Shown here piece by piece: positions 12,416 to 63,770 of a DNA stretch of 64,000 nucleotides. The notes under the pieces were generated by a model. The model ran no database searches, was not told where the DNA came from, and worked only from the letters and a program-made list of their open reading frames with translations. A program made the translations under genes and the position numbers. Every line of letters starts with the position of its first letter. The first letter of the stretch is position 1. Source of the stretch: Agelas oroides (Eukaryota > Porifera > Demospongiae > Agelasida > Agelasidae); assembly GCA_949130485.1 (NCBI GenBank), contig OX422193.1, forward strand, positions 3,536,371 through 3,600,370, given 5' to 3'.

Positions 12416-12458
12416 TTCGGACTGTCGCGGCGTTCACACTAGCGGCAAATAAAAAAAA

Positions 12459-14491: not shown

Positions 14492-14501
14492 ATAAAAAAA
14501 A

Positions 14502-22820: not shown

Positions 22821-23181
22821 TTCCCAGACCCTTCCTGTATGGGCGGGGCGAGAGAGGAGAGGGAAGGGTCTGGTGAATAACTCAACCCCAACGCGGATCC
22901 ACTGCTGTATTCATGCCGTCAGTGTCGATGAGGGAAAATGCGAATGTCAAGTAGGTGTGAGTCGTGAATAAACTTTCGCGTGAATGTGTAGTGTGGACAT
23001 GTGGCTGCGCGTTTAAGTGTGGTACTATAAACTTGTAAGTATTCGTGGCTTCGCAACTATCAATTGTTAAACATTAATGAAATTCCATGGATCTGCGTTG
23101 GGGTGAGTTATTCACCAGACCCTTCCTTCCCTCTCCTCTCTCGCCCTGCCCATACAGGAAGCGTCTGGGAACGAAACTAGG
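22821..23181. mobile_element. Foldback MITE inside the hAT transposase
   Basis: Arms of about 80 bp: GTTCCCAGACCCTTCCTG at the left and the complement ending AAGCGTCTGGGAACGAAACTA at the right. GGTCCA flanks both sides, the remains of a longer duplication. It splits the hAT reading frame right after GDIWT. Confidence 0.65.
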
Positions 23182-24046
23182 TCCAAATATCACCTGTGAT
23201 GCTCACAAAAGCACTCTCCTGCTGTAGCCTCAGCTTAACATGCTCCCTTTACATCGACATACTTTCGCTCGATCAGGCCCATGAAATACTGATCCGAGGG
23301 AAGTCGATACCCTGGTTCGAGGTAGGACAGAAGCGCCTTGAATCCTCCACCATTCAAGGTATTCAGAGGGCGAAGATCGAGAACTATCATCCCCATGACC
23401 AACGTATTGATGCAATTAGATCTCTCCTTCGTACAAGTTTTACATGCGGTGTGTCGAGCTTAAGCTGCTTCGGCTTTGGAGCCTGATCGGTCTGGGTAGG
23501 TACAAAACCTGGACTGTGGACTGGACTATGGACTGGACTATGGACTGGATTATGGACTCAATTTTGGACTCAAGTTTGGACTGGACAGCAGAACCAAACT
23601 AACCTCACGTTTCCAGGCCTTCCCGCCGTCCAGTACTTGATAGCTTCTAGTCTTGTGTCAAAGGTTAGGATTATACAGATTCCTGTTTTATTTTCGGCAT
23701 AGATGTCAGCATTTAAGGCCTAGACAATGCGTTGGAAGAAAGTTAATTGAGCTAGAGACTGAGTACAGTCTCGCAAGCCACACCCTTTGTGAAGGGTCTG
23801 GCTTGCAAGACTAGAGGGGTGAGGTGGCAGCTAGTGAGCATTACCTGCTCAAACAGTGTGCTCGTACAGCCAATATACCCCAACCTAGTCTGGACCCAGA
23901 CCCTTCTTGTGCGGCTAGAAGGGTCTGGGGTCCAGACTAACCCCAACCCGGATCTCAATTTGCAAAAAATTATAGGCAGTCTTCCCAGCAGCTGAATTAA
24001 ATCAGCTGAGGACTCTAGCATGGCTGTTACAAGGCTCGCTTCTGCT

Positions 24047-24113
24047 GCAGGTCCAGTGGCTCAGTGGTAAGAGCATCAGGTTCCAGGTTCGACTTCAAGC
24101 TGGATCTCATTTC
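24047..24113 (+). repeat. tRNA-like (SINE head) segment inside hAT
   Basis: TGGCTCAGTGGTAAGAGC matches the tRNA A box and GGTTCGACTTC the B box, 34 bp apart. No paired acceptor stem is seen, so this is a tRNA-derived SINE head or pol III relic and not a working tRNA. The sister copy lies inverted at about 63555-63615. Confidence 0.45.
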
Positions 24114-25115
24114 TCTCTAAAGCATGTATAACGCAACTCCTTGCCAACCAGCTGGGCTAGGAGACCATAGTCCAGTCCAGAGTCCAGAGTCCAGGTTTTG
24201 TACCTACCCGATCGGTCTCGACGGGATGCTTGTGTTTCAAATGTTCGTTCATGGTATAGAAGTGGCCCCATGGTAAGCAAGCTCCTCACCACAAAAATTA
24301 CAGCTAACTCTACACTTGGCCTTTCCATTATTAGTACTTTCGCTGTTTGAAAATACTTCCAACAAACTGCCTTCTTTTTACTTTCAGCAGAGCCTGAGGC
24401 GCTCTCTTCACCAGCTGCCATCTTGTCCAATTAGGAGCACGTGGTTTAAACTGTGCATGCGCAGCGACTAATCGACGCTTGGTATTAATAGACGACGTAG
24501 CAAATTCTGCTCGACTAATCGATTAGCTGCTGTAGTCGTTCGAGCCCTAGTACCCAGGCTCACGGTGTTAAGTAGTGTAATATACCCATATATTTTTTTT
24601 TGCGCATTCTGTAATGCTATCTAACTCGATATGTGTTTAGTAGTGCTTGCATGTACCATTCACGTCTTGTGTAACTCTTCTTTGTATCACGTTAAAGTTT
24701 TTCTGTTTGCTTGTATACATATAGATGCAGGAATCCCTAGCAGATCAGCCTCAGGTTGAAGGGAGTATACCTGCTTAAAATTAAAGTCTACTACTACAAA
24801 CTACACGCCCACCAAGAGCCTGGGTACAAGGGTAGCTTATGCATGTACTGATTACCCCTTCCATTATCTTCCTTCAATACTGACAGTATTGGTAGCCTTT
24901 CATAGCCATTAAAATGCATGTGATTTTGTCCATACTGAAATGTGTGAGCAGTGCTTCTCCTGGTTATGTGATTTGCACAGTATAACAGTTATCCTAAAAC
25001 TATGAGCAAGTCAGTAGATTTCTCGAGTTGATACTTAATATTATTTCATGAGGTTACACAAACTTGTGCACCTGTATATCAGTTGCATGTTGTAGCCTGC
25101 TGGGTCTGGGTTTGG

Positions 25116-25864
25116 CATGGCTGTAGCAAGTGGTTGGGCTGGTCGGGTTTTGGCCCGACCACTTTTTGCAGACTAAACATGTACGTGCACACACTTTAAA
25201 AGCACTTGAAGTCGCTGCCCATCATCATGCAAATTTCACTGACAAAAAGGTAGCGTTCTGTTAGGTTTTCAGCCATTTCGGTTTACTCGATGGCCAATCC
25301 TTACTGCGACAAAGCTTGTGCTGCCTGCGGTAGGTGTGCGCAGCTAAGTTTATATGCGGAATCTGAAGTCCCTAGCCTTGTTGCCCCACGCCCCGTCCAG
25401 CTTTCCATCATACGTTTGCCATGCGTAGTGTCAGTGACGGAAAGCTGGGCGGGCGCTCAGGAACAAAACTACTCATTCAGTACTCAGTGTGAATCAGAAT
25501 CCTGCTTGCCTATGATCACAGCTAAGAAGCGATCTCCGAGCAAATTTTTGCTGCTGGGGCATGCCTTCCATATAGATGTCAATATACTTGCTTGATCTAT
25601 GTAGCTGCTACATGCATTACATTTACGCACAATCTGCGACCACTACCTCACAGAGTACGTGTAGCCGAACTATTGACATTAAGAATTGCAGAGCATATGA
25701 GATCGTGGGCCCAAGAATGGTCTCAGAAGCGATCTCCTAGCGTCTAATTTAACAAAATTTTCCTGGGGGAGCATGCCCCCAACAACCCCCCCCCCACCTA
25801 GATACTACATGCAGGATGTAGACTTTGGCCACACCACCTTCAAATAGCTTGCTTATGGCCCCTG
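25116..25864. mobile_element. TIR element, CATGGC(C/T)GTAGCAAG ends, copy in left arm
   Basis: Left CATGGCTGTAGCAAGTGG, right GCTTGCTTATGGCCCCTG. A nested small MITE lies at about 25371-25475, with GTCCAGCTTTCC and GGAAAGCTGGGC arms. Sister copies are at about 61395-62140 (other arm) and 43649-44374. Confidence 0.6.
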
Positions 25865-26108
25865 TTTCGTGATGCTCATAGACCAAGTGCAGGACAACCT
25901 TGGATGTCTGAGGACAGATGGAACATCTTGGACCTGGGATTGATGATGCTCATAGACCATGTTGAGGACAACCTTGGATGTTCAAGGTAGTCCTAGGACA
26001 GATGGGATATCTCGGACCTTGAAATGGTCAGGGAAAACCTTGAATATCCAAGTAGAGGGAGATGACTCAGTAAGAATAAGTTCATAGGCTGTACCCAGAA
26101 CAACCCTT
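25865..26108. repeat. Degenerate tandem repeat (GGACAACCTTGGATGT units)
   Basis: Units of GATGCTCATAGACCA plus GGACAACCTTGGATGT recur two to three times. The array is mirrored in the right arm at about 61140-61390. Confidence 0.5.
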
Positions 26109-26730
26109 ATATGTGACCCGCTCAGCAAAAACCCAGCATATCCCGCATTTTATGAAAATGGAGATAAGACCAGAAATCGGTATATCGATGTGCAATTATG
26201 CAGCAGCAACAAAATGCAAGCAATCAGTTGCTTGGTTCCCCAGTTGTGGAGCAAAAAGCATTGCAGACGCGGAATGCAACGTTTCGATGTTTTTACGTCG
26301 CTATGGTAAATTTTAATGTCTCTCGTGTTACGTAAAATTGACACGTGTTCTTGTACAAAGGCAGCTTGAAAGTCGGCAAAGACAGTTGGGAAAGACAGCA
26401 GTTGTGAAAACGGGGGCTTACATTGTGTCTATAGACAGAAAGACAACAGTGAACAGACTGGAAGCTGGTGAAATTGGGTTTTTTGAAAAACGCGTACTAA
26501 GCTGTCCCTAGTAACACTTTCCCGTATTTTACTGACCTGCCTATGAGTTCGAGCTTATATCGTCCTTATAGTAGCAGAGCTGGGCTTTATGATACAGTGC
26601 AAGCCCCCTGTAACACGTTGGTATAATAATCTGAGTTTAGCTGGAAAATGACCTGTCTGCATAAAATCGCTTCAAACTCGAATTCAATATTTGCGGGACG
26701 TGCTGGGTTTTCGCTCAGCGGGTCACATAT
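26109..26730. mobile_element. 620-bp MITE, ATATGTGACCCGCTCAGC ends (left arm)
   Basis: Terminal inverted repeats ATATGTGACCCGCTCAGCAA and TCGCTCAGCGGGTCACATAT. TA-rich flanks fit a TA target. The copy at 60514-61135 sits at the matching place in the right arm, so the insertion predates the duplication. Confidence 0.7.
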
Positions 26731-26804
26731 GTCTTAGATGTGTGGAGTTGTTGTTAGGATTAATTGATGGCAATCCCGGATAAGGCTCTCTTGAAGATCC
26801 GCAT

Positions 26805-28103
26805 CTACCAAAAAGCACACTTTTGTACTGTTATGCACAAGACAATACAAACTCTTGCATAACTTACACACACTAGGAGAACCAGACCAAGTATCTGCAG
26901 GAACAGACAGAGTTCAGACAACATGATAACAGTATAAAAAAAAACACTGCTGAATTTACTGAGTACAGACATAGCTAGGACACTCTAAATATATGCCATA
27001 ATCGGTATGCATAATATTATTTATGGTAGCATAATCAAATTGGGTATAAAGCCACTGATAAGCTACTGCATGAGTAAACATGTACCAGGATAGAAGTGCA
27101 TTTAACTGAAAACAAATCAGATAAGTGAAATAGAAATGCAAAGATTTGGATCTTCATAAAACCATAATGCAGTCTCACAGTTAATTTTTCCGCACATGCT
27201 ACCCTAATGCAAAACACAGGCCTCACAACTTATTTATGTTATTGTTATTTACACTTTCTGGGGTCTGTTTCTGAGAGACCTCTAAGGCTTCAATGCCATC
27301 TCACAGATATTGACATGCAGGCATTCACTTATAAACCATACCTGCTGCACAGATTTACGTGCAGAGTACTGACTCACATTGGACACATAAATAAAACAGG
27401 CACATAAAATTGCAGCATTGCAGTATGTGCTTTGGTAATGCACATGCATTCCAGGTAAATTGACGATTTAATTAAGCTATAGCCTATACGAATGAAATCC
27501 TTCAGCAAACAGAGTTTGATTGCTCACTCATGCAGGATTATGTAGGTATACCAGTGTTATACAAACACCAGAAGTTGTGTGTCGAGTGGGGGAGCACCAA
27601 CACCGCTGGCACATCGATGTTCATGATGTGAAAATTTCAACACATATAAAGTGTGAAGGTTAAAACATGATGGGATAAGGGGATGGGGCATTTATGGCTT
27701 AAATGGATGGGGCATTTATGACTTAAATGGGCGGGGCATTTACAACTTAAATGGGTGGGGCATTTACGACTTAAATGGGAGGGGCATTTATGACCTAAAG
27801 GGGTGGGGCAGTTATGACAAAGTAAGTTATTGTTTGTTTGGAAGATATGCTCAAAAAGCACTGGTCTTCAGGGGAGTAGCTACCCTTTCCAGTCCTCGCA
27901 TGACCATGGGTTTCGGTCCCTTTGAACTCCTGACCCGTGGCCTACTACAGAAAGGGCGGGACCACTCCCCGCCTAAGGCTTGCTTTGAGTGAGGAGCCCA
28001 GCCCTCACTCGACACACAACCATGCATAAACCTTACTGCTGCCATCGTTCGGAAGCCCACTCCGTAAACCATTGCTCCACCAACAATAGCTCCTAAACAC
28101 TCC
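26805..28103 (-). pseudogene. Orphan copy of transporter exons 13 and 14
   Basis: Minus strand. The exon 13 copy, 28103-28037, encodes ECLGAIVGGAMVYGVGFRT (Met where the gene has Ile) with intact AG and GTAAGG splice sites. The exon 14 copy, 26894-26805, encodes LGLVLLVCVSYARVCIVL and ends in the same TAG. Nothing resembling exons 1-12 lies upstream on this strand, so the pair is a duplicated gene tail without a head. The sequence is unbroken but has no visible promoter. Confidence 0.8.
27574..28024. mobile_element. TIR element carrying a minisatellite (left arm)
   Basis: Ends GTTGTGTGTCGAGTGGGGG and its inverse near 28000-28024. It contains a 25-27-bp tandem array (about 27672-27820, GGGGCATTTATGACTTAAAT) of five to six units. 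The sister copy is at about 59185-59665. Confidence 0.55.
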
Positions 28104-28296
28104 CTAATAATTAGCATGGAATGAAGAAACAGTACTAATAGAACTGTATGCAGTTTATAGCACATTAGCCAGTGCACACTGCAGCTCTTAGGCGTCATAC
28201 ATACAGGTACGTATATTAGTTACAAAATTACAAAGTATTTACACTATGATCTTTCTTTGAGCACCCATCACATGACAATGCAGTAATGCAATACGT

Positions 28297-28400
28297 ACTT
28301 ATACCATGGCTTCGAGGGCTGTACAGGTTTTATTGCCCGAGCCCGAGGGTGAGGGTAATAAAACCAGTATAGCTCGAGGAAGCCATGGTATAACTGTTTT
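28297..28400. mobile_element. Palindromic MITE present only in the left arm
   Basis: TATACCATGGCTTCGAGG at the left and CTCGAGGAAGCCATGGTATA at the right form a near-perfect hairpin of about 95 bp. The equivalent place in the right arm (near 58885-58905) lacks it, so it inserted after the duplication or was lost from the other arm. Confidence 0.6.
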
Positions 28401-28531
28401 ATAGCAAAAATGTGTCTCCATAGTAATCCAACATGCATATCACGAGTACATAGCAACTAGAATGGTATTCATCGAAGTTTCAATGATGTATGTAGCAACC
28501 ATGATGTCAAACATACCATTCAGTTTAAAAA

Positions 28532-29283
28532 TTGTGGCAAGGAATGGCTGTGGTTACTCCATCTCTTCTGATCGCCATTAAGATACAAGAGAAAGTTAGT
28601 TCAAACTTTTGTTTAGGCCTTACAGATTGGTGTAGTTGTGAGAGCTGTATTGCAAGTAGAAGTTCGATGGAGCACGAAGAGTGTGTTGACAAACCACCGA
28701 ATGGCAAGCGTGCAAAGCTACATGTATCACTGACATGCTTTAGCACTCCTTGGTCTGATGAAGAGATGATGGAGATTTATAAGGGCAAGTGATCTGCGAA
28801 TACGCAGAGAAGTACAGCATGGGCAGTGAAAGCATTCAGAGAGTGGATCAATGAGCACAACTCTAAGTATCCTGAAGATCAAGTTCCCGAAGACTTCCTT
28901 GACCAAAATTTCGCAGAAAGGAGTACTCCACTAAATCATTGGCTGTCCCGTTTCGTTGTCAAGATGGTGAAAATTGTCCACCAGCTACGTACTCTGCACA
29001 CAGTGCCGGCATTCTTCGCTACATGAGGGAACAAAATCCTGATACACCCGACTTTCTTTCTAAGAAGGATTGATGGTTTAAAGGTCTTTGTGGAGCAATG
29101 GTGTCTATCTTTGTGGAACTTCGCAAAAGGGTGTTGGGACAGAAGTAAAGCACACGGCAGTTATCACTCAGGAGGAAGATCAGCTCTGGGATCAAGGCGT
29201 GCTCGGAGTAGATAGCCTGCTGAAGCTTCTGCGTAGTGTTTTTTTTCTCCGTTGGGAAAGTGTTTTGTATTAGAGGAGGCAAG
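28532..29283 (+). pseudogene. Truncated Crypton recombinase copy (left arm)
   Basis: Same text as the longer copy on the minus strand at 58780-57540: MAVVTPSLLIAIKIQEK, CLGLTDWCSCESCIA, STPWSDEEMMEIYKGK, AFREWINEHNSKYPEDQV. It has an in-frame stop after YKGK and frame shifts later. It ends abruptly at 29283, at the arm boundary, before the catalytic residues. Confidence 0.7.
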
Positions 29284-31021
29284 ACATAAGAATTGTAGGA
29301 TAGGTGGGCTATTGTTTGATAATCAACATACCTGAAATTTAACTCCAAACAGTCTTCTACCCGGGATTTAGCAAAAGAAATACTACATCTGTTCAAGCAC
29401 CTGTCCTCGGAAAAAGGATTCCACGTGTAGGTTAGAAACCTAACCAGAGGTTCTTAGGGCTTTAGAAGCCCGAGGAAGTGTTTACATAATAATTCCAACC
29501 CACGTAGAATCCTTTGGTTACTCAATCGCGACTGTTGTGGACATGGCCTGCGAGCTATGCTACTAGCTGCTCGGCTGTTGAACAAGTTTCTTGCACTCAA
29601 AACGGAGTGGATCGGGCTTGGTTGGGACTTGGAAGATCTTTCCAGTGTATAGTCTCAGTTAATGGTTAGTGAAACCTACAAAATACAGACCTATTCACTC
29701 AGGTTTCTATTTGGGATAGAAAACCTGAGGTATTCTACGTGAAGTAGAAGACCTTACACTTCAACATCAAAGCTAGAATACTCATAAATTTTCTAATAGC
29801 GGACAAGTCAGATAATCATGTATTATATCGCATTGCCAGCCAAATTTGGCAACTGCTGCAGCAAGGTATGGGCTCATAGGCAAGGCCAATGGAAGGGCAA
29901 GTATTTTAGTCTTTCTTTATCAGAGGAGGTGGCAAAGAAGTTATGCATTGTATTTTCGGACATGATTTTCTATCCCCGCGTACTACAATCGTTTCGGGTA
30001 TTGAAAACTATCCCAGCCCCAGCATGTCTTATTGCTCTGATGATCTGGCACAGTTGGTAGCTACCGTGCTAAGAACTTTGAAGTCTGAGGTCCGAAAATA
30101 TATCAGTCCGAGAATAAATTTTTGCCTCTAGCGTAGGAACATGAACACATTGAACAGACATAAAATAGCTTCATTTTTAAACCTGATTTCAACACACATC
30201 ATCAACAATTTCAACAATGTTTGACCTTTGGTGCATAGTTAGATTGCAGTGTACAGCAATGTAGTGCACAAATGCACACTGCAGCAGTGCACAGCAGGTT
30301 TGCTAATTTGCACCAAACACAAGAGTCTTGATCAGTCATAGACAGAAATAGAAACTACAATTCAAGATTTTTTGCTGCACAGAGTACACAAAATGTAGGC
30401 CTCTATACTGATCACCTTGATTAATAGGCTGTGAGGCTGCTCTATTAGCCCTACACAGCTGCCAGAAATGTATCCCTTCTCTGATATTCAATACTGACTA
30501 GCTTGAATACTATACTGATACCATGCTTACTTGTTCTATTTTCCCTTGACGTGCTGTATTCTCTCTGAATGCATACTTGTATGCAGAAATTCGGCTAAGT
30601 TAAATCTCGTAAAGAGAAGGTTAAAATCTAAATTTGGGGTAAAACCCGTAATTTTTTTCTCATGAGCAAGTCTGTAACGAGATTCTGTTGCGAACGGCGT
30701 GTCTTACGAATTCTTGAAGAAGCCAGCACTAGTGAACAAGCTTTCGGTACGTGGTCGACAACAACACCATACGTTCGAAGTGCAACTGCCCTTGGCATCG
30801 TCTTCTTCGATGTCTACAGGTAGTTTCTCTCCTACCACGGGAGTCCATACTCGTTTGCACGAACAACACTCTCAGTACATCTCGGGCACAATGACTTGAC
30901 TTACCATCTTCTCTAGCTCTCTGTACTGTCACATGTCGCGTACTGAATTGTAGCCCACCCCAATTGTCACCGAACGCAATAATTAAATACGCAATCGGCT
31001 TGAAAAGTGCAGAACGCAAGC
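29284..31021. other. no gene or repeat recognised
   Basis: Sequence between the inner edge of the left arm and the next repeat. Open frames of 60-96 residues occur (for example 29818-30060) but none shows a family signature or convincing splice context. Confidence 0.4.
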
Positions 31022-31710
31022 ATTAAACAATTATTAAGGTGGCGGGGAAGCCTTTCGGCAGAGGTTAACGAAAACATAAACTTTGGTTACAGTCAGGACC
31101 AGGGTTACTCCTACTTCAGGGTTAGGGTTTGCTTTAGGGCAATCTTGCTTCGCCTAATTTGAAAAAGGGTTTTAGTGGCTCATTAATATATTCATGAACC
31201 CAAAATTGCCACTCGATGGACGCATCTACACACTCACTCTATGCTTGCTTCCTCTTGTGAATGAGCCCCTCCCGTAGACAAGCTGTGAATTTTTTTGAAA
31301 TGTGCATTCATTTTGGTGCAGTCAAAGTTGTCCATTCCAAGAGTAGTGACAAACATGAGTCTAGCCTGACTTTGAGAGTAGCTCTGAACAAAAGCTGGCA
31401 CAGATTGATTTGAGATACATTGGTGGATAGGACGCTACCTTACTAGCCCCACCTCTCCCCCTTATGTCGCTAAACAACTCACGGTTCTGTTCCACACACA
31501 ACTCCTCTGGAGCTTTCTTCTCTACGGCAGCATGGTACCAACGTTATATTGCGCATTCTAGTTAAAGCCCAGCCCAGCACTCGGAGCACCAGGCCACGGT
31601 CACCTACTAGGCTTGGCATACGATCAGACCTGGGCCTACCCAGTGAGTTCAGTCTTGGCCACTGTAACCTTTCTGCTGCTTCTAGACACAAGCTAGCTTT
31701 CACAAGCAGG
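31022..31710 (+). repeat. Mid-size repeat, left copy (flipped-core pair)
   Basis: The flanks 31022-31240 and 31441-31710 match 50825-50616 and 50416-50193 in reverse complement. The 200-bp core 31241-31440 matches 50417-50615 in the same orientation. Part of the right flank, minus strand, reads RLNSLGRPRSDRMPSLVGD in both copies. Confidence 0.8.
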
Positions 31711-33389: not shown

Positions 33390-33460
33390 TAGTCTCGTCC
33401 CCAGACCCCACCCTCTCACGTTTCTCGCCGGGAGGCGCGCGCGGGCTTGGCACGAGACTA
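33390..33460. mobile_element. 71-bp TAGTCTCG MITE
   Basis: TAGTCTCGTCCCCAGACC at the left, TTGGCACGAGACTA at the right. The flanks GGCCCCCCT and GGCCCCCTA are a nearly perfect 9-bp duplication. It lies 166 bp upstream of the transporter ATG. Confidence 0.6.
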
Positions 33461-33625
33461 GGCCCCCTACCCCAATTCAAGAATCGAATCTTGTCGCAAT
33501 CCGCGTTCCATGCCGTCATACGGACCTTCGATCCTCTCTGACTCTGCCTTAGAGTAGTTCTTTAAAGATAGCAGACAAAGCCAAGGGATCTCATTGTCTG
33601 GACAGGACAGCGTGACGTGGACACG

Positions 33626-41633: not shown

Positions 41634-41680
<47 letters not shown>

Positions 41681-53600: not shown

Positions 53601-53645
53601 GTATATCCAGACATATATGGAATTGCAAAGTAAGTAAGCTTTGTA

Positions 53646-53717
<72 letters not shown>

Positions 53718-56700
53718 TCAACAGAGTTCATGCACCTTGAGCTAAGTGCGCATTTGCAAAGTACATATAGAATACCCTCATGCACAGATGTGTATCTTCA
53801 CTTGAATTTTTGCACATGCATAAACAATCTTTACAATGGTAACATAACTGTAAGTGAATCTCCCACCTGTAACTTAATTGTGAGTGAGCCTCACACCCAA
53901 AACGTAACTATGAGTGAGCCTTACACCTGTAACATAGCTGTGTGTGAGCTTATACCTAGCTAAAAATATAGCCACACTGAATGTATACTCTTGATGCCAG
54001 ATGCCATAACTAGCATGAGCATACCACACATTAGAACAGGAATGCCGTAGCTAAGGAAAGCATGCCCAATTTTAAGCTTGTCACTATGAAATTTAGTGTG
54101 GGAAATTCATGAGTTGACAGCGAGAGATCCCTACTTTGTTTGCCCATCCCCAAAGTTATTTAAAAATCATAATAACCCTATCTATTAAGCCCCACCCCCA
54201 ATTTGTGTACCTACAACATAGAAATTGATACAAACCCAAGAGCTGAGCGAGGAGTGGTTCCCCCATTTTTGTAGTATGCTACAGACCAGGACTAAAAACC
54301 AATGTTCTTTGAGCATACCCAAAAAGGAACTCATTTATTAGCCTCGTTCCCAGGCCCAAAGAGGAGGATAAAGGGCCTGGTTTCAGCCGTTTACGCATGC
54401 ACTTAATTATTTCCGATTTAAGCACGTGTTGATCAGTGGGAGGGTGCTAATGACGCCTTCAAAGTCACAGAAATGGGAAGAGTTCCTCAAACCCATGTCA
54501 ACTTCTAGATATTACCTCTCAGTTGGCCTGTTCTTCTCGTCAACTGACTCCACGGGAGCTTGCACTGTCTGTTTATAGCTTCAAATCGACCGCTGAATGA
54601 GTACAATCGAGTGAGTTTCTTGCATGCGCGAACAGCTGAAACCAGGCCCTTTCTCCTCCTTTTTGGGCCTGGGAACGAGGCTACTCATTTATCTATAACT
54701 GTCCAACCCATTTAGCTACAAATGCCCCATCCATTTTAGTCGGCTACAAAGTTGGGCTTATTGTTTGTGTGTGTGCGTGTGTGTGTGTATGTGGGTGTGT
54801 GTGGGTGTGTGTGTGGCATGTTCTTTGATTTACTTGTGATGCAAAATTACAATACTTAGTCTTCTTGTTTCCAGAATTTTGCCTATCAAGAGCACTGGAA
54901 TGGTACTCAGATTGCTGAGTTGAATAGGTCATTTGGCACCGTCTTGGCATAGCCTCGAACCCAGGCTTTCTGTTCCGGATTTTGTCTCGCAGCTTTGGAG
55001 AAAAATCGGATTTTCTCCAAAGCTGCGAGACAAAATCCAGAACGGAAAGCCTGGGTTGGAGGCTAGTCTTGGCAGGGCATTTCATGGAAACCTTGTTTTT
55101 AACCATTCACTGCAGTGCAACACTATACGAAAAACAGTAGTGCACTGTAAATCTGCCATGCACTTCTTGTAGTCTAAACGGTGCTTATCCAGAGCCAAAG
55201 CCCACCTGAGGTGGTGTAGTTATAGTAACTGGTAGCTGTAAATAAGTACACTCACTGCATGCACAGGGCAGGAAGTGCACTCACCACTTACGATTAGCAT
55301 TCTCATTACATACCCATCTCATGCACAACAGTAACAAGTAGAGAGAATGCTGACAATTGGGTGAATGATCCAGCTTCCAGATCAGATGACCTTATTCTTT
55401 TTAATACCTAGGTCATTACATACGGGTGAAAGTGAAACAGCTATTGCAAGTCTTGTGTCTGGAATTTTTGTTGGAACAAGTTCTGCAGGGTGAGGAAGTT
55501 TGTAGTACCTTATGATATATCTGCATGTTTACTGGGGTTCAGCCTTCCTTCCTAGTTGGGGCGAGCCTGAGCGAGCCCCACACTAGCGTGACTGCATTGT
55601 GCACGCGTGTGTGTATCTATGCGCATATAGAGTAACCAATCAATTATTGGACACCCCACATTATCGGACGGCTGCATAGCACGAATGGGAGTAACAACGG
55701 CCCTTGTTTCCGATCCAGTAGGTAGGTTGATGCAACTGCTACGTGCACCCCAAATTTGAGCTTTATAGATCAGTGAATGTGGACGCTATGCCCCAATAAA
55801 GGGCGGTGTCCGATGGTCGCGACCATCGGACGAAACTACCGATCCACGGACGACGAAGTCCTATAAAGCGAGGGAGGCAGCACTGTCCACCAAACTTGGT
55901 TTTCAGCTGCAGCTATCCTTACTCTACCTAACCTCCAATTATCAGCGATTCTTACCTTCCAAAAGCCTTTTCAATTTCACGTGCTTTGTCAAAATGTGCA
56001 TACACGGACACCGCCCTTTATTGGGGCATAGCGTCCACATTCACTGATCTATAAAGCTCAAATTTGGGGTGCAATTAGCAGTTGCATCAACCTACCTACT
56101 GGATCAGAAACAAGGGCCGTTGTTACTCCCATTCGTGCTATGCAGCCGTCCGATAATATGGGGTGTCCGATAATTGATTGGTTACTCTATATGCTTGCTT
56201 GGACCGACCACTTACCGGAAATTTAAATGAGCGCATTCAAATATTTCACGAAGATCGATATCGCGATATCGTAAAGCATGTGAAGGCCAGTGGAGGGCTA
56301 CTGTCAGAGTGCAGCGTCATGGACTCGGAGCGAAGACGACTGAAGTTGAAGCACGCATGGCACTGGTTTGTGCTTCTACCGACGACGGCAGGCCGCTCAC
56401 AGGCGGTGCAAATTTAATATGGACGGTTGTTGACTACTCAGAAACCAGCGGTGTAAAGCTTATTCCATGCATGTGTAGCCACATTAGCAGCCCTGGCAGG
56501 TCAGTTTCAGGTCAGGGCCATGCATATTAAAACGGCACTCATAAACGCCATGAAATCCAGCTCATGATTTCAGTATAAAGCTTGGTCCATGCACGTGTAG
56601 CCCAGGATGGAGAAATTGCTGCAACTTGTTGGCATATGCGTCATCAGGTTTGGCTTATTACGCTCATGTAACAGTAGACAGTGACAAATCCTGCTGTGTG

Positions 56701-59700
56701 CCATGAAAAGTTAATACGACATTTAAAGCAAATCAAAAACCATTTTAAAGCCCCCTGTGAACGGTAAATGGATGTGCATGTAGGAGGATAATTGACTTGA
56801 TGTATTATATCACTCATCAGTGACATAATATCCTGTATCAGCTTGCTCAGGCTCGCCCCCACAATGTTCTACATTTTCTAGTAGAATGTAAATGGTGCTC
56901 ACATCCCATTGTGAGAGTTGTAGCATAAGACAAAACTGAGTGTTTTAACTGATTTACTGTATTTGCTCTAATTTATGGAACGGCCAAAAATAATTGTATT
57001 GGCGACCGTTCCGCATTAATTAGAATGTGTTAAAAATCATTTCCCTTCGCATTCAAATAAATTAGAGTGGTTTTGCACGTGTCAAAAGCAGTTGAACAGC
57101 TACTGAAAAAAGCGAGATGGATCGATTTGTAACAATGTCAACACCACAGATAACACAGAAATCTCTCCTATAACTTACGCTGTGGAGACTCCCAGAGGTG
57201 AACATGTTTCACTGCAATCGAAGAGATCGTCGCCAGCTGTGAACCGTGGGCCTGGTCGACCGACAGATTCGCCGTGGCCGTTGTTATATGCACAACAATA
57301 CCACTGTTGGCCACCTGCCGCTTACTCTGGCATTTTCTGACTCACGGAGGAGAAACGAATGCAGAAGGCGACGGCGCTCTCCACTCATTCCGGGCGGATT
57401 GAAGATTTCGTTGCACGTTGAGACTGATGCCTATATTGCAATCTACTGGTAATGCTGTACATTTGAAGCAGTTACATTAGTAAGTTCTTTACCAAACTCT
57501 CATGCTTCTGCTCCTGAAGTTGGTATATTAGAAAGAGCCTGCTGTTGCTCATGAGAAGGTCTCTCATACAATCTCAGAACAATGCCCAGTACAACTTTGA
57601 ATCAGCTTCTCAGGGACACTAGCAGAGAACATGTGAGGGGCGCCTGTAGCTCTTAAGGCGTGATTTGTCTTCTTTTCAGTGATCCCAGCCTCAGCACACA
57701 TATTGCGTACCATTGTCTGTAGCTTTTCCTTCCCTATTGGCACACACTCATATCATGGGCCATCTGGTTTCAAAACTGGAACAGGTTTTGGCCTCAAATA
57801 ATAAATACCCTTTTCAAAAGCCATTCTGGGATATTTCGACAAATAAAGATCAAGTAAATACACTACACATCTCTCACCAATACTCGGATTGGCATAAACT
57901 GGTACGACTTTGTTACTAACTCTCAGCTCAGCCCCTGAGTTGTTCTTAGAGCCATTTTCGATGTAGACATACCGATCTGGGTCATGTTTCCACTGGAATT
58001 GAGAAGGTTTCAAATTTCTTTGTTCCTTGCCTCCTCTAATACAAAACACTTTCCCAACAGAGAAAAAAAACCTACACAGAAGCTTCAGCAGGCTATCTAC
58101 TCTGAGCACACCTCTATCCCAGAGCTGATCTTCTTCCTCCTGAGTGATAACTGCCGTGTGTTTTACTTCAGCCCCAAAACCCTTTTGGTGAAGTTCCACA
58201 AAGGTAGACTCCATTGCTCCATGAAGACCTTTAAACCGCCAATCCTTCTTAGAAGAAAGTCGGGTGTATCAGGATTTTGTTCCCTCATGTAGCAAAGAAT
58301 GCCGGCAAGAAGGCTGTGCAGAGTAGCTGGTGGACAATTTTCACCATCTTGTCTTCGAGCCTCGACAATGAAACGATGATTTAGTGGAGTGCTCCTTTCT
58401 GCGAAATTTTGGTCAAGGAAGTCTTCTGGAACTTGATCTTCAGGATACTTAAGAGTTGCACTCACTGATCCACTCTCTGAACGCTTTCAATACCCATGCT
58501 GTACTTCTCTGCGCATTCACAGATTGCTTGCCCTTATAAATCTCCATCATCTCTTCGTCAGACCAAGGAGTGCTAAAGCGTGTCAGAGATAGCTTTGCAC
58601 ACTTGCCATTCGGTGGTTTGTCAACACACTCTTCACGCTCCATCGAAGTTCTACTTGCAATACAGCTCTCACAACTACACCAATCTGTAAGACCTAAGCA
58701 AAAGTTTGAACTAACTTTCTCTTGTATCTTAATGGCGTTCAGAAGAGATGGAGAAACCACAGCCATTCCTTGGCACAATTTTTAAACTGAATGGTATGTT
58801 TGACGTCATGGTTGCTACATACGTCATCGAAATTTCGATGAATACCATTCTAGTTGCTATGTACTCGTATTACGCATGTTGGATTACTATGGAGACACAT
58901 TACGTATCACATTGCATTACTGCATTGTCATGTGATGGGTGCTCAAAGAAAGATCATACGTAGCTAGCATAAATACTTGGTAATTTTGTAACTAATATAC
59001 GTACCTGTATGACTCCTAAGAGCTGCAGTGTGCACTGGCTAATGTGCTATAAATTGCATACAGTTCTATTAGCACTGTTTCTTCATTCCATGCTCATTAT
59101 TAGGGAGTGTTTAGGAGCTATTGTTGGTGGAGCAATTGTTTACGGAGTGGGCTTCCGAACGATGGCAGCAGTAAGGTTTATGCATGGTTGTGTGTCGAGT
59201 GAGGGCTGGGCTCCTCACTCAAAGGAAGCCTTAGGCGGGGAGTGGTGCCGCCCTTTCTGTAGTAGGCCATGGGTCGGGAGTTCAAAGGGACCGAAACCCA
59301 TGGTCATGCGAGGACCGGAAAGGGTAGCTACTCCCCTGAAGACCAGTGCTTTTTGAGCATATCTTCCAAAAAAAACAATAACTTACTTTGTCATAACTGC
59401 CCCACCCCTTTGAGCCATATATGCCCCACCCATTTAGGTCATAAATGCCCCTCCCATTTAAGTCGTAAATGCCCCACCCATTTAAGTTGTAAATGCCCCG
59501 CCCATTTAAGTCATAAATGCCCCATCCATTTAAGCCATAAATGCCCCATCCCCATATTCCATCATGTTTTAAACTTCACACTTAATTTATATGTGTTGAA
59601 ATTTTCACATCATGAACATCGATGTGCCAGCAGTGTTGGTGCTCCCCCACTCGACACACAACTTCTGGTGTTTGTATAACACTGGTGTACCTACATAATC

Positions 59701-60439
59701 CTGCATGAGTGAGCAATCAAACTCTGTTTGCTGAAGGATTTCATTCATATAGGCTATAGCTTAATTAAATCGTCAATTTACCTGGATTGCATGTGCATTA
59801 CCAAAGCAAGAACGTTACATACTGAATCCGCAATTTTATGTGCCTGTTTTATTTACGTGTCCAATGTGAGTCAGTACTCTGCACATAAATCTGTGCAGCA
59901 GGTGTGGTTTATAAGTGAATGCCTGCATGTCAATATCTGTGAGATGGCATTGAAGCCTTAGAGGTCTCTCAGAAACGGACCCCAGAAAGTGTAAATAACA
60001 ATAACATAAATAAGTTGTGAGGCCTGTGTTTTGCATTAGGGTAGCATGTGCGGAAAAATTAACTGTGCGACTGCATTATGGTTTTATGAAGATCCAAATC
60101 TTTGCATTTCTATTTCACTTATCTGATTTGTTTTCAGTTAAATGCACTTCTACCCTGGTACATGTTTACTCATGCAGTAGCTTATCAGTGGCTTTATACC
60201 CAATTTGATTATGCTACCATAAATAATATTATGCATACCGATTATGGCATATATTTAGAGTGTCCTAGCTATGTCTGTACTCAGTAAATTCAGCAGTGTT
60301 TTTTTTTTATACCGTTATCATGTTGTCTGAACTCTGTCTGTTCCTGCAGATACTTGGTCTGGTTCTCCTAGTGTGTGTAAGTTATGCAAGAGTTTGTATT
60401 GTCTTGTGCATAACAGTACAAAAGTGTGCTTTTTGGTAG
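33626..60439 (+). CDS. SLC18B1-like major facilitator transporter, 14 exons
   Basis: Exons: 33626-33886, 34346-34441, 34512-34585, 41684-41831, 43036-43104, 46335-46422, 46802-46873, 48454-48527, 49688-49786, 52582-52670, 53534-53629, 55412-55489, 59104-59170, 60350-60439. Every junction is GT-AG and the phases agree, giving 466 residues; human SLC18B1 is about 456. The family is a proton-coupled vesicular polyamine exchanger with 12 membrane helices. Visible marks: a hydrophilic N-tail, SMIAPFYPIV (TM1), SFLLRMVEGVGTAMYF (TM4), GVAAGPAVGGGLQD (TM5 motif C), IIIGPITDRL (loop 8-9 motif A), GLVITAVGCVFLGP (TM9), LLVIPVYPDIYGIA (TM10), GAIVGGAIVYGVGF (TM11) and LGLVLLVCVSYARV (TM12). I chose ATG 33626; the in-frame GTG at 33617 is not a credible animal start. 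Introns total about 25 kb, mostly transposons. Exon 14 could splice further at an internal GTAAGT, so the C-terminus is the least certain part. Confidence 0.88.
34661..39456 (-). mobile_element. Ngaro-type (DIRS order) tyrosine-recombinase retrotransposon, fossil
   Basis: Lies in intron 3 of the transporter, antisense to it. Its split direct repeats follow the Ngaro A1-ORF-B1-A2-B2 plan, read on the minus strand: A1 at about 39456-39313, B1 35359-35131, A2 35130-34997 (with extra sequence to 34893), B2 34892-34661. The parts in order are a first-ORF region (39290-38000) with tandem repeats, a reverse transcriptase region (about 37560-36990), RNase H (about 36980-36400) and a tyrosine-recombinase region (about 36512-35700). 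The copy is broken, with several interruptions (well under ten by eye). The two B copies are nearly identical, so the insertion looks fairly young. Confidence 0.85.
38300..38890. repeat. Tandem repeats within the Ngaro first-ORF region
   Basis: Units of about 85-110 bp share CAACATGTCTCCCCACCCCC and CAGCGCTGGAGG; a second, shorter unit of about 62 bp (GGTTATATGCCATCCAGCAG) follows at about 38705-38880. At least four and three units respectively. Confidence 0.7.
39545..40065 (-). pseudogene. Possible Crypton-like fragment
   Basis: NMWHAWCERCRK followed by EMSSDRMNSLLSRFIQKL resembles the N-terminal helical part of DUF3504/Crypton recombinases, where a W..W block precedes an LSRFI.E.R block. 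It is interrupted by a small TAGTCTCG MITE (39719-39780). No catalytic half is seen. It lies in intron 3 of the transporter. Confidence 0.4.
40115..40986 (-). other. Two unassigned open stretches in intron 3
   Basis: 40357-40115 reads DKIDDVPDNMWEVLFQDFL; 40986-40693 reads QRILELHYKEEHQAYTTEGD and later a cysteine-rich part. They look protein-like rather than random but match no family I can name. They may be parts of the same decayed element as 39545-40065. 40615-40670 between them is a G/C-rich repeat patch. Confidence 0.3.
40987..41632. other. intron 3, relic of TIR element
   Basis: 41100-41250 contains the ATGGCCTCAGAAGTGACCT and CTGGGGGAGCATATCC text typical of the CGTAGC TIR-element group. 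Its own ends were not found. Confidence 0.35.
41633..41680. repeat. (CA)n microsatellite abutting exon 4 acceptor
   Basis: A CACCCAC run followed by about 16 CA units, ending three bases before the CAG of the exon 4 acceptor at 41683. It replaces the usual polypyrimidine tract. Confidence 0.85.
42030..42235 (-). repeat. tRNA-derived SINE
   Basis: On the minus strand, ATAGCTCAGTGGTCAGAGCA (A box, about 42145-42120) and GTGTTCAATTCC (B box, about 42100-42085) have tRNA spacing. The cloverleaf stems do not close, so a working tRNA is unlikely. Intron 4 of the transporter. Confidence 0.5.
42498..43003. mobile_element. Possible TIR element ending next to exon 5
   Basis: TACCGTAAG at the left and CTTATGGTA at the right are short inverted ends, and both subterminal regions are rich in GGGGGTGT or its complement. 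No coding capacity. Weak evidence. Confidence 0.35.
43011..43055 (+). promoter_or_regulatory. Duplicated 3' splice site at exon 5
   Basis: The 20-mer GGTTTGGTACAACTCTCACT occurs twice, at 43011 and 43036, each directly after a CAG. Use of the second acceptor gives the conserved TM5 frame; use of the first would add 25 nt and shift the frame. Confidence 0.7.
43386..43570. repeat. About 80-bp tandem repeat in intron 5 of the transporter
   Basis: Two full units and part of a third of GACAGAGAAGTATGTTGATG ... CTTGGGGACATACGG, nearly identical to each other. Confidence 0.75.
43649..44374. mobile_element. TIR element, CATGGC(C/T)GTAGCAAG ends, copy in intron
   Basis: CATGGCCGTAGCAAGTGGTC at the left, GCTTGCTACGGCCCTG at the right, 726 bp. 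It contains a nested small MITE at about 43937-44029 (TAGCCTCGTTCCCCAGGC to GGGAACAAGACTA). No transposase. Confidence 0.65.
44375..45165. other. intron 5, nothing definite
   Basis: About 44380-44610 repeats words such as GGGACAGAC and ATCCCT from the 43.4-kb array in decayed form. No exon or element ends seen. Confidence 0.35.
45166..45903. mobile_element. Foldback element, GGGCATGTGTAAAAG ends
   Basis: The arms of about 115 bp are inverted: TTGGGCATGTGTAAAAGAC...GGATCACCCGGATCA at the left; TGATCCGGCAGTCTGGCTTT and TACACATGCCCCAA at the right, with ATTGCCCATTCGATTTTTGC between. Non-coding. Confidence 0.6.
46526..46740. mobile_element. Foldback MITE, GTTGCAGACAAGCTGAAG family, copy 3
   Basis: Shares CTCACAGATGTTCTGAGG, GTCAGTGTATTGTGGTTGTA and the end CTGCAACCAGGGTAACCAC with the copies at 865 and 6015. 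Left end worn. It lies between exons 6 and 7 of the transporter. Confidence 0.6.
47193..48308. mobile_element. 1.1-kb palindromic foldback element with two divergent ORFs
   Basis: The arms are inverted almost to the centre (about 47750). The left end TAGAGTAAGTTAGCAATTAT and the right end TCCTGACTTACTGTA are related. Frames of 91 and 92 residues (47728-47453 minus, 48050-47772 plus) read outward and agree at 76 of the last 84 positions, for example TTNFTV.LLIESDW.MFSC. I recognise no domain. It lies in intron 7 of the transporter. A half copy is at 52033-52347. Confidence 0.75.
48528..49687. other. intron 8 of the transporter, nothing definite
   Basis: 48652-48716 recurs at 16868-16932. A plus-strand frame of 88 residues (48819-49085) has no family signature. 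No element ends resolved. Confidence 0.35.
50193..50825 (-). repeat. Mid-size repeat, right copy (flipped-core pair)
   Basis: Reverse-complement partner of 31022-31710 in its flanks, same-strand partner in its core (50417-50615). On the minus strand the core holds a protein-like frame (VPAFVQSYSQSQARLMFVTT, then LGMDNFDCTKMNAHFKKF), which the left copy breaks with one extra T in a T run. Confidence 0.8.
50826..50935. repeat. Degenerate CCCTAA-like interstitial array
   Basis: AGCCCTAGCCCTAGCCCTAG followed by TTAACCCTAAAATCCCTAAC and similar words. It resembles decayed TTAGGG telomeric repeat, directly next to the right mid-size repeat. A shorter GGGTTAGGGTTT lies inside the left copy at about 31120. 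Confidence 0.55.
51680..52034. repeat. Tandem duplication of about 175 bp
   Basis: TCCAAAATGAAAACAAACAT starts at about 51680 and again at about 51855. The two units run to TTCAGAACACTTA with a few changes. In intron 9 of the transporter. Confidence 0.8.
52033..52347. mobile_element. Half copy of the 47.2-kb foldback element
   Basis: GAGAGTAAGTTAGCAAGTAT through CCAGTCCGATTCGATCA matches the outer left arm of 47193-48308, with an internal deletion. The second arm is absent. Confidence 0.7.
52671..53533. other. intron 10 of the transporter
   Basis: A decayed pair of CACCAAATT(A/T)AA words at 53380-53450 resembles the MITE at 9557. Otherwise nothing seen. Confidence 0.35.
53648..53718. repeat. 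(CA)n microsatellite just after exon 11 donor
   Basis: About 33 CA units starting 18 bp past the exon 11 donor (GTAAGTAAG at 53630). Confidence 0.9.
53838..53952. repeat. Degenerate tandem array, about 28-31-bp units
   Basis: Four units of the type ACCTGTAACTTAATTGTGAG followed by TGAGCCTCAC. Intron 11. Confidence 0.6.
54339..54683. mobile_element. TAGCCTCG MITE with perfect 9-bp TSD
   Basis: TAGCCTCGTTCCCAGGCCC at the left, GGGCCTGGGAACGAGGCTA at the right, flanked by CTCATTTAT (54330-54338, 54684-54692). Mutator-type MITE, 345 bp, intron 11 of the transporter. Confidence 0.8.
54767..54815. repeat. (GT)n microsatellite, impure
   Basis: GTGTGTGCGTGTGTGTGTGT with GTATGTGG interruptions. Confidence 0.85.
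54950..55065. mobile_element. 116-bp near-perfect hairpin MITE with 9-bp TSD
   Basis: The whole element is a palindrome (TAGCCTCGAACCCAGGCTTT to its complement) with arms of about 55 bp. It is flanked by GTCTTGGCA at 54941-54949 and 55066-55074. Confidence 0.85.
55628..56189. mobile_element. 562-bp foldback element, TAGAGTAACC ends
   Basis: TAGAGTAACCAATCAATTAT at the left and ATAATTGATTGGTTACTCTA at the right; the arms run about 180 bp. Both arms hold repeated TCGGAC words. TA flanks fit a TA target. The ends are related to the 47193 element. Intron 12 of the transporter. Confidence 0.75.
56190..57539. other. intron 12, nothing definite
   Basis: No exon is recognised here; exon 13 lies beyond at 59104. 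Short open frames at 56178-56530 and 57246-57452 carry no family signature. Confidence 0.4.
57540..58780 (-). pseudogene. Crypton tyrosine recombinase (DUF3504 type), longer copy
   Basis: Minus strand. An N-terminal Cys-rich stretch (GLTDWCSCESCIA, then ECVDKPP) is followed by STPWSDEEMMEIYKGK, WVLKAFREWISECNS, LNHRFIVEARRQDGENCPP and LHSLLAGILCYMREQNPD. The core has the catalytic-Arg block CIRGGKEQRNLKP, YVYIENGSKN and VPVYANPSIGERCVVYLLDL. After a stop near 57752 it continues into HALRATGAPHMFSASVPEK and TGHCS, matching the H..R and H/W boxes of tyrosine recombinases. At least three frame changes or stops, so inactive as read. It lies in intron 12 of the transporter and crosses the inner edge of the right arm (about 58022). 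Confidence 0.75.
59185..59665. mobile_element. TIR element with minisatellite (right arm)
   Basis: Partner of 27574-28024. The array at about 59397-59560 has a 25-27-bp period (CATTTAAGTCATAAATGCCCC), and one plus-strand frame reads as nine-residue units of the type HLSHKCPI. It follows exon 13 and lies in intron 13. Confidence 0.55.
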
Positions 60440-60513
60440 ATGCAGATCTTCAAGAGAGCCTTATCCGGGATTGCCATCAATTAATCCTAACAACAACTCC
60501 ACACATCTAAGAC

Positions 60514-61135
60514 ATATGTGACCCGCTGAGCGAAAACCCAGCACGTCCCGCAAATATTGAATTCGAGTTTGAAGCGATTTTATGCAGACAGGTCATTTTC
60601 CAGCTAAACTCAGATTATTATACCAACGTGTTACAGGGGGCTTGCACTGTATCATAAAGCCCAGCTCTGCTACTATAAGGACGATATAAGCTCGAACTCA
60701 TAGGCAGGTCAGTAAAATACGGGAAAGTGTTACTAAGGACAGCTTAGTACGCGTTTTTCAAAAAACCCAATTTCACCAGCTTCCAATCTGTTCACTGTTG
60801 TCTTTCTGTCTATTGACACAATGTAAGCCCCCGTTTTCACAACTGCTGTCTTTCCCAACTGTCTTTGCCGACTTTCAAGCTGCCTTTGTACAAGAACACG
60901 TGTCAATTTTACGTAACACGAGAGACATTAAAATTTACCATAGCGACGTAAAAACATCGAAACGTTGCATTCCGCGTCTGCGATGCTTTTTGCTCCACAA
61001 CTCGGGAACCAAGCAACTGATTGCTTGCATTTTGTTGCTGCTGCATAATTGCACATCGATATACCGATTTCTGGTCTTATCTCCATTTTCATAAAATGCG
61101 GGATATGCTGGGTTTTTGCTGAGCGGGTCACATAT
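60514..61135. mobile_element. 620-bp MITE, ATATGTGACCCGCT ends (right arm)
   Basis: Partner of 26109-26730 with the same ends and the same 67-residue shadow frame. It lies just 3' of the transporter stop codon (60439), so it may be within or beside the 3' UTR. Confidence 0.7.
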
Positions 61136-62682
61136 AAGGGTTGTCCTGGGTACAGCCTATGAACTTATTCTTACTGAGTCATCTCCCTTCTACTTGGATA
61201 TTCAAGGTTTTCCCTGACCATTTCAAGGTCCGAGATATCCCATCTGTCCTAGGACTACCTTGAACATCCAAGGTTGTCCTCAACATGGTCTATGAGCATC
61301 ATCAATCCCAGGTCCAAGATGTTCCATCTGTCCTAGGACTACCTCAGACATCCAAGGTTGTCCTGCACTTGTTCTATGAGCATCACGAAACAGGGGCCAT
61401 AAGCAAGCTATTTGAAGGTGGTGTGGCCAAAGTCTACATCCTGCATGTAGTATCTAGGGGGGGGGGGGTTGGGGGCATGCTCCCCCAGGAAAATTTTGTT
61501 AAATTAGACGCTAGGAGATCGCTTCTGAGACCATTCTTGGGCCCACGATCTCATATGCTCTGCAATTCTTAATGTCAAAGTTTGGCTACACGTACTCTGT
61601 GAGGTAGTGGTCACAGATTGTGCGTAAATGTAGTGCATGTAGCAGCTACATAGATCAAGCAAGTATATTGACATCTATACGGAAGGCATGCCCCAGCAGC
61701 AAAAAATTTGCTCAGAGATCGCTTCTTAGCTACGATCATAGGCAAGCAGGATTCTGATTCACATCGAATACTGAATGAGTAGTCTTGTTCCTGGGCGCCC
61801 GCCCAGCTTTCCATCGCTGGCATTAGAGACGGCAAACGCACGATGGAAAGCTGGACGGGGCGTGAGGCAACAAGGCTAGGGATTTCAGATTCCGCATATA
61901 AACTTAGCTGCACACACCTACCGCAGGCAGCACAAGCTTCGTCGCAGTAAGGATTGGCCATCGAGTAAACTGAAATGGCTGAAAACCTAACAGAACGCTA
62001 CCTTTTTGTCAGTGAAATTTGCATGATGATGGGCAGCGACTTCAAGTGCTTTTAAAGTGTGTGCACGTACATGTTTAGTCTGCAAAAAAGTGGTCGGGCC
62101 AAAACCCGACCAGCCCAACCACTTGCTACAGCCATGCCAAACCCAGACCCAGCAGGCTACAACATGCAACTGATATACAGGTGCACAAGTTTGTGTAACC
62201 TCATGAAATAATAACTCGAGAAATCTACTGACTTGCTCATAGTTTTAGGATAACTGTTATACTGTGCAAATCACATAACCAGGAGAAGCACTGCTCACAC
62301 ATTTCAGTATGGACAAAATCACATGCATTTTAATGGCTATGAAAGGCTACCAATACTGTCAGTATTGAAGGAAGATAATGGAAGGGGTAATCAGTACATG
62401 CATAAGCTACCCTTGTACCCAGGCTCTTGGTGGGCATGTAGTTTGTAGTAGTAGACTTTAATTTTAAGCAGGTATACTCCCTTCAACCTGAGGTTGATCT
62501 GCTAGGGATTCCTGCATCTATATGTATACAAGCAAACAGAAAAACTTTAACGTGATCAAGAAGAAGACGTGAATGGTGCATGCAAGCACTACTAAACACA
62601 TATTGAGTTAGATAGCATTACAGCATGCACAAAAAAATATATATGGGTATATTACACTACTTAACACCGTGAGCCTGGGTAC
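61136..62682. other. right-arm intergenic sequence
   Basis: Contains the tandem GGATATTCAAGG-type array (61140-61390), the CGTAGC TIR-element partner (about 61395-62140) with its nested small MITE, and unique sequence up to the hAT edge. No gene seen. Confidence 0.5.
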
Positions 62683-63770
62683 TAGGGCTCGAACGACTAC
62701 AGCAGCTAATCGATTAGTCGACCAAAATTTGCTACGTTGTCTATTACCGGAATTTTCAGGTTTGTTGTCCGCGCCCTTTTGGTTTATAACTTGCGCATGC
62801 GCATACTGCCTGTCTAAAAAAACCTGTTTGGCTGCATGCATGAAGCAGTTTAGGCACCTGAGGGACTTAGATTTACAATATAGTGACTATCTACCTGGTC
62901 TGTGAACGTGGCTTCACATCACCGGTCTCCTCGAACATCTCGTCTCACAGTCCGTTCAGACACACTGTGTAGCTGGCCTATATCTTGTGGAGAAGCATGC
63001 CAGGCGAGGGCAATCCAGATTATTCGCCATCGCAAATCGAGGGAGTACGGAATAGGGATGACTAAAGCCAGAAGACAGTGCTTTTGTTGTTTGGATTTAC
63101 CGCGGCACATAATCTGGGTCAAAGTTCAAGCAATTGTGTGCATGCGTATTCGGTATTGGACAACAAACCTGAAAATTCCGGTAATACCAAGCGTCGATTA
63201 GTCGCTGCGCATGCGCAGTTTAAACCACGTGCTCCTAATTGGACAAGATGGCAGCTGGTGAAGAGAGCGCCTCAGGCTCTGCTGAAAGTAAAAAGAAGGC
63301 AGTTTGTTGGAAGTATTTTCAAACAGCGAAAGTACTAATAATGGAAAGGCCAAGTGTAGAGTTAGCTGTAATTTTTGTGGTGAGGAGCTTGCTTACCATG
63401 GGGCCACTTCTACCATGAACGAACATTTGAAACGCAAGCATCCCGTCGAGACCGATCGGGTAGGTACAAAACCTGGACTCTGGACTCTGGACTGGACTAT
63501 GGTCTCCTAGCCCAGCTGGTTGGCAAGGAGTTGCGTTATACATGCTTTAGAGAGAAATGAGATCCAGCTTGAAGTCAAACCTGGAACCTGATGCTCTTAC
63601 CACTGAGCCACTGGACCTGCAGCAGATGATAGTTCTCGATCTTCGCCCTCTGAATACCTTGAATGGTGGAGGATTCAAGGCGCTTCTGTCCTACCTCGAA
63701 CCAGGGTATCGACTTCCCTCGGATCAGTATTTCATGGGCCTGATCGAGCGAAAGTATGTCGATGTAAGGC
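62683..63770 (+). mobile_element. hAT element, partial copy (right arm)
   Basis: Starts TAGGGCTCGAACGACTA after the duplication remnant CTGGGTAC (62675-62682), the partner of 21349-24549. It carries the BED finger frame (CNFCGEELAYHG, HLKRKHPVETDRV, 63304-63460) and LDLRPLNTLNGGGFKALL (about 63633-63690). It is interrupted at 63771 by another element; the remainder is likely outside the window. Confidence 0.8.
62747..63181 (-). mobile_element. 435-bp Tc1/IS630-like element inside hAT, right arm only
   Basis: CCGGAATTTTCAGGTTTGTT at the left and its exact inverse at the right, with TA duplication at 62745-62746 and 63182-63183. The left arm carries the empty site GTCTATTAATACCAAG at about 24478-24493. 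On the minus strand, 63122-62919 encodes an IS630-type helix-turn-helix start (SLDLRWRIIWIALAWHAS, then VSERTVRRD) without a catalytic domain. Confidence 0.8.

Follow-up and report, generated by a model that had tools for sequence, protein, structure and literature searches.

A 64,000-nucleotide stretch of the genome of the sponge Agelas oroides (contig C11, positions 3536371-3600370; hereafter the window) carries an SLC18B1-like transporter gene whose last two exons, 13 and 14, occur twice, in sense within the right arm of a large inverted repeat and antisense within the left arm, 5.5 kb upstream of exon 1 (antisense exon 13 to position 33626). An earlier reading made from the letters of the window (hereafter the sequence-only reading) had placed them there, and the exon coordinates confirm it. 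The identity that it gave to the gene is also borne out, as the product is a major-facilitator protein (Pfam MFS_1) and the sole solved-structure match at E <=1 is SLC18B1 (PDB 9d7u, E 7e-20), found with a query that was a 403-residue composite of 11 exon pieces, not the full protein, and that matched over residues 118-353. The sequence match to SLC18B1, itself a transporter of this superfamily, spans most of the protein, and polyamine or amine transport is a putative function of the sponge gene; unlike SLC18B1, however, the window gene is one among many copies in the genome searched (259 Mb, 141 contigs). Thirteen exon segments were placed from reading frames and splice sites (Table 1), so that the 14 exons of the sequence-only reading are not all pinned. 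The arrangement around this gene probably arose in two events, an old inverted duplication followed by a rearrangement through its arms that resembles the duplication-inverted triplication-duplication (DUP-TRP/INV-DUP) class of human rearrangements.

When the window was compared with itself, the two arms were recovered as three inverted matches, 24041-24487 with 63182-63626 (98.9%), 24486-28292 with 58911-62746 (95.7%) and 28409-29292 with 58016-58901 (90.2%). The sequence-only reading had described two arms of about 6 kb facing each other across 28.7 kb. The inverted pair stands; the length does not, since the left arm occupies 18414-29292 and the right arm runs from 58016 to C11:3604790, equivalent to window position ~68420. 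The earlier outer coordinates came from an exact 143-base match between 23249-23391 and 63625-63767. Of the 5106 bases aligned between the arms up to position 63626, 175 are substitutions, and exact identity never extends beyond 291 bases in a row; the description of the arms as nearly identical over long runs was too strong. The alignment of the arms that had been suggested as a check gives about 75 substitutions per kb in the inner ~1.5 kb and about 10 per kb farther out. The three insertions noticed between the arms are real length differences: 437 bp in the right arm (62745-63181), and 107 bp (28296-28402) and about 649 bp (23392-24040, the gap between matches) in the left. Moreover, a stretch of ~512 bp in the outer left arm (18578-19089) has no right-arm match. 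The inner limit of both arms coincides with a DUF3504-type fragment, to which similar DNA was found on contigs C8 and C2, and an opposite-strand frame overlapping the right-arm inner end (57753-58268) matches DUF3504. The 437-bp insertion is an element with terminal inverted repeats, of which at least 14 further stretches of at least 400 bases, at 96-97%, were present among the genome matches scored.

A wider self-comparison within this single assembly (C11:3440001-3660000, 220 kb, no N) showed that the arm is present four times, in alternating orientations, because a block of ~73 kb containing the whole transporter gene is tandemly duplicated with about 10 substitutions per kb. We refer to the copy lying mostly left of the window as unit A and to the copy holding the window's gene as unit B; both share one orientation. 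The tandem match pairs C11:3490812-3525378 with 3564382-3598700 and continues, with interruptions, to 3554784 paired with 3629798. Its twelve blocks longer than 1 kb contain 537 substitutions in 55,419 aligned letters, 5-23 per kb depending on the block. As a consequence of the duplication, two more arms and another copy of the gene, with an identical set of exons, are located just to the left of the window; over the 13 segments this gene copy differs from the window copy by 5 bases, 2 of them amino-acid changing (segment 46803-46874 translated out of frame). The first 18,413 nucleotides of the window match C11:3605.5-3629.8 kb in interrupted blocks of 91-98%, the last of which ends at 18414. 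Within the right arm of unit A, C11:3527303-3531457 and 3531455-3535606 form a 4.15-kb head-to-tail duplication at 99.93%, which either happened very recently or stems from the assembly. Two tandem arrays spaced at ~79-80 bp (C11:3613277-3615639 and 3618703-3620065) are present in the flank of unit B, within an interval that unit A lacks.

Left of the other gene copy lies what appears to be an older inverted copy, decayed and about 31 kb long. C11:3460730-3492088 aligns in inverted orientation to 3548775-3521085 over 28 collinear blocks, chained from 96 minus-strand hits, with 739 substitutions in 13,740 aligned bases (54 per kb). In the plus-strand comparison of these old-arm regions the 12 longest hits were just 54-216 bases long and scattered. 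Decarboxylase remnants are found at the far end of this old arm. Judging from these alignments, the older inverted duplication appears to be what first placed antisense exons 13 and 14 upstream of the transporter gene. The old antisense exons themselves show 3 substitutions and an 8-bp deletion. We make no claim of special constraint on them, because about 9 substitutions would be expected without constraint at 54 per kb, and about half as many if the real gene alone were constrained. The stretch of the window's left arm bearing hAT transposase-like frames has a counterpart in the right arms and is unaligned in the old left arm.

The left arm of the window is a mosaic. In columns 0-1600 of a four-arm alignment, its inner part differs from the old left arm by 5 substitutions in 1268 positions, against 109/1462 and 111/1462 from the two right arms. 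In columns 2000-4000 the affinity is reversed: the window left arm differs from the right arms at 20 of 1664 and 15 of 1669 positions (14/1672 between the right arms themselves), and from the old left arm by about 7-10%. Diagnostic sites are of left type at 9 of 9 positions between 28294 and 28070. The old arm is deleted over most of 28070-27549. Sites between 27549 and 27414 are mixed (6 left, 8 right), and those below 27414 are of right type with two exceptions down to 26296. This pattern places the switch within 28070-27413, in the intron between antisense exons 13 and 14. At the other end of the mosaic, position 18414 marks both the end of the tandem match of unit A and the start of the inverted match to the right arm, and the two share one base. 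The sequence-only reading was correct that an inverted duplication carried the last two exons to the 5' side of the gene, but a single event of about 6 kb is ruled out, as the arm is a mosaic and extends to 18414.

Taken together, these features suggest the following course. In a first step, a segment of ~28-31 kb containing the last two transporter exons and the decarboxylase gene would have been copied in inverted orientation to a site about 4 kb upstream of the same transporter gene, leaving long inverted arms (L and R) on either side of a spacer of ~29 kb. A second rearrangement would later have used these arms. The far end of the right flank would have been joined, without homology, to an inverse outer right arm at 18414; a homologous switch would then have led from the inverted right arm into the left arm, followed by second copies of the spacer, the right arm and the flank. 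The window left arm would accordingly be the junction product of the later ~73-kb duplication. The copy-number order along the locus, counted in one assembly, is 1-2-3-2-1. The inner left arm, spacer, inner right arm and flank are twofold and the outer right arm is threefold, its inverted middle copy (18414-27413) lying between C11:3521085-3529903 and 3594386-3604790. One junction, the switch zone, falls inside the older inverted repeats; the second is non-homologous, with its one shared base. From this layout we infer the order of the steps and a replicative, template-switching mechanism, and we consider the two-event origin probable.

If the three outer arms came from one event, their differences should be star-like. 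In 5221 selected columns, chosen by leaving out an indel region, a dispersed repeat and the last part of the switch zone, there are 35 sites unique to the window left arm, 28 to the right arm of unit A and 26 to that of unit B. Shared sites that are derived relative to the old arm number 3 between the right arms and 4 and 6 between the left arm and either right arm. No pair stands out, as expected from a joint origin, and this outcome depends on the columns chosen. Several observations weigh against the two-event origin. Over all 6670 columns after column 1850, unique sites number 79, 49 and 89 (left, A right, B right) and pair sites 25 for the two right arms, 7 for left with A right and 5 for left with B right; at the 25 sites the left arm retains the old-arm base against both right arms. 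In 5457 columns, which omit two of the stretches and retain the switch zone, unique sites number 51, 28 and 26. Divergence between units A and B is moreover patchy, from 0 to 32 differences in single kilobases. Most of the departure from a star-like pattern over all columns we put down to the indel region, the switch zone and the dispersed repeat, but an older left-arm copy, or exchange between the two right arms at a later time, would account for it as well.

The same product could have been reached by origin-dependent inverted-repeat amplification (ODIRA), in which switching between leading and lagging strands would give an inverted triplication later trimmed by arm recombination and end joining. 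Both junction types fit this route, by which DUP-TRP/INV-DUP is derived in the passages available from PMC10766186. It calls for more steps, and its product cannot be distinguished from that of direct template switching during break-induced replication; we regard it as a tentative possibility, whose share is counted within that of the two-event origin.

The main competing explanation is a tandem duplication starting in the old left arm, followed by gene conversion in which a right arm would have overwritten ~9 kb of the new left arm. Common processes would suffice, and in the unfiltered columns the surplus of differences on the left arm allows separate timing. The tract would end at 18414, where homology ends, and an end at the junction is to be expected because past that point the old arm still shares homology with the right arm. 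It would, however, have to be a single tract of ~9 kb. According to the part of PMC3961182 available, mammalian conversion tracts are rarely longer than 1 kb, though tracts of up to 22 or 53 kb have been suggested. Neither right arm stands closer to the left arm in the selected columns, and the hAT-bearing stretch, missing from the old left arm, is present in the window left arm. For these reasons gene conversion appears unlikely.

Recombination between the arms might also flip the spacer, giving rise to both orientations and to an exchange of tails. The arms are long, lie 28.7 kb apart and contain stretches only about 1% different, and the human PLP1 repeats behind DUP-TRP/INV-DUP are described, in portions of PMC4352052, as also mediating a common inversion. 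As the sequence-only reading foresaw, the gene would remain complete. The left-arm copies keep their AG acceptors and the GT donor of exon 13, and with one isoleucine-to-methionine change in exon 13 and an unchanged exon 14 peptide, a flipped gene should be workable, on paper. Human inverted repeats that share gene exons, as presented in sections of PMC3961182, are alike in that the gene end lies inside the repeats and exchange should leave the mRNA unaltered; both orientations are seen in people there, while no inversion was observed at the sponge locus. Given those human cases, an inversion here, even if seen, would be of no new kind. No sign of spacer inversion was found in this assembly. 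Both units have the same orientation, the inner arms are still about 75 per kb apart, and the right arm carries no reciprocal counterpart of the left-arm mosaic, all of which makes flipping improbable. As the source of the mosaic a reciprocal inversion is ruled out, since a single L-R inversion cannot yield two right-type outer arms. Very doubtful, too, is the broader idea that the arms act as a standing amplifier and switch, which would have multiplied the transporter/decarboxylase pair while the spacer, thanks to the gene tail present in both arms, turns over harmlessly, both orientations segregate and tails are exchanged. Finally, it is improbable that the structure is an assembly artefact, with haplotypes placed in tandem or a repeat misjoined: such repeats are hard to assemble and a difference of ~1% is within the allelic range of outbred animals, but the 220 kb contain no N, the units differ structurally, and the splice at 18414 is precise, its one shared base not being an overlap of the assembler type.

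The duplicated flank contains an intronless decarboxylase-like gene (Table 1). Among solved structures its nearest relative is an L-methionine decarboxylase from bacteria (E 1e-130); the identity to bacterial relatives is 39-43% (3 loci). The sponge genome holds 8 near-full-length matches, one of which has a stop, in addition to fragments. Five are on C11 (3.34-3.66 Mb), two on C2 and one on C7 (51%). From sequence comparison, horizontal transfer followed by amplification beside SLC18B1-like genes is possible. The SLC18B1-like family comprises at least 106 exon matches, at least 28 of them to the first exon (best 103 of 261 candidates), on contigs C11, C6, C9, C3, C1, C7, C16, C17 and C22. Two more distant inverted paralogues lie nearby on C11, paralogue C from 3456614 down to about 3430.5 kb and paralogue D from 3694650 down to about 3665.3 kb. 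It is not claimed that paralogue C lacks the tail, as its exon 12 match lies at 3430.6 kb and the DNA examined starts at 3430001. Within the introns of the window gene, a 1.1-kb stretch (47193-48308) matches its own reverse complement at 87% and is probably a transposon-like palindrome, and reverse-transcriptase-like frames are found at 36785-37734 on the minus strand (RVT_1 in 1 of 2). An RNA-family scan of the window at gathering scores gave 0 matches. In the whole genome, in which at least 23 numbered contigs carry long sequence, 4 matches to the nuclear-receptor DNA-binding domain and 8 wnt matches, these on four contigs, were counted; numbers as low as these point to a sponge.

Table 1. 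Features of the A. oroides window (positions in window coordinates).
Feature	Position	Strand	Remarks
Right-hand flank of unit A (Y)	1..18413	+	duplicated right of window
Decarboxylase-like gene, intronless	10760..12433	-	in duplicated flank; 558-codon frame; Pfam Pyridoxal_deC
Non-homologous junction, flank to inverted outer right arm	18413..18414	.	one shared base
Left arm	18414-29292		inverted to right arm
Outer left arm	18414..27413	-	inverted third copy of outer right arm
hAT transposase-like frames	21507-22881	-	outer left arm; Dimer_Tnp_hAT in 1 of 2 frames
Antisense exon 14 copy	26805..26894	-	left arm; identical peptide
Homologous switch zone	27414..28069	-	right-arm type/left-arm type
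Antisense exon 13 copy	28037..28103	-	left arm; one I to M change
Inner left arm	28070..29292	-	left-arm type
DUF3504-type fragment	28409..29292	+	left arm's inner end; inverted match to 58016-58901
Spacer with exons 1 to 12	29293..58015	+	~28.7 kb between arms
Exon 1	33626..33889	+	3' edge approximate
Exon 2	34347..34441	+	edges approximate
Exon	41684..41832	+	edges approximate
Exon	43035..43097	+	edges approximate
Exon	46335..46423	+	edges approximate
Exon	46803..46874	+	open frame; conserved with inverted paralogue C; edges approximate
Exon	48415..48527	+	
Exon	49688..49783	+	edges approximate
Exon	52580..52672	+	edges approximate
Exon 11	53540..53629	+	5' edge approximate
Exon 12	55413..55489	+	edges approximate; open frame; conservation with paralogue C
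Right arm, portion within window	58016..64000	+	continues past window end
Exon 13	59104..59170	+	right arm
Exon 14 with stop codon	60350..60439	+	right arm
437-bp element, terminal inverted repeats	62745..63181	.	right arm only; at TA (target as read by us)

Among the literature listings examined (titles and abstract openings), no title dealt with this locus, with SLC18B1 in sponges or with L-methionine decarboxylase from an animal. If the two-event origin holds, the locus would be a base-resolved case of a class known mostly from new human mutations (inverted triplications also from yeast), preserved in a sponge genome in which the two junctions and the parent repeats can still be read. An old inverted duplication could then set up the later amplification of an intact gene, and an inverted repeat noticed within one window may be a minor piece of a more extensive tandem structure. 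In the human PLP1 and MECP2 cases, as described in parts of PMC4352052 and PMC10766186, one junction lies in inverted repeats and the other mostly shows microhomology of 1-4 bp. The available descriptions of the human class and the window have in common the succession of duplication, inverted triplication and duplication, with two junctions and four copy-number steps, one junction lying in pre-existing inverted repeats and the other being non-homologous with little or no microhomology. The human cases are new mutations in patients, whereas the window case stands in the reference assembly of a sponge; its triplicated segment, at about 9 kb, is small and contained in the arm. The parent repeats differ as well, being about 99% identical in the human accounts at hand and diverged by 54 substitutions per kb in A. 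oroides.

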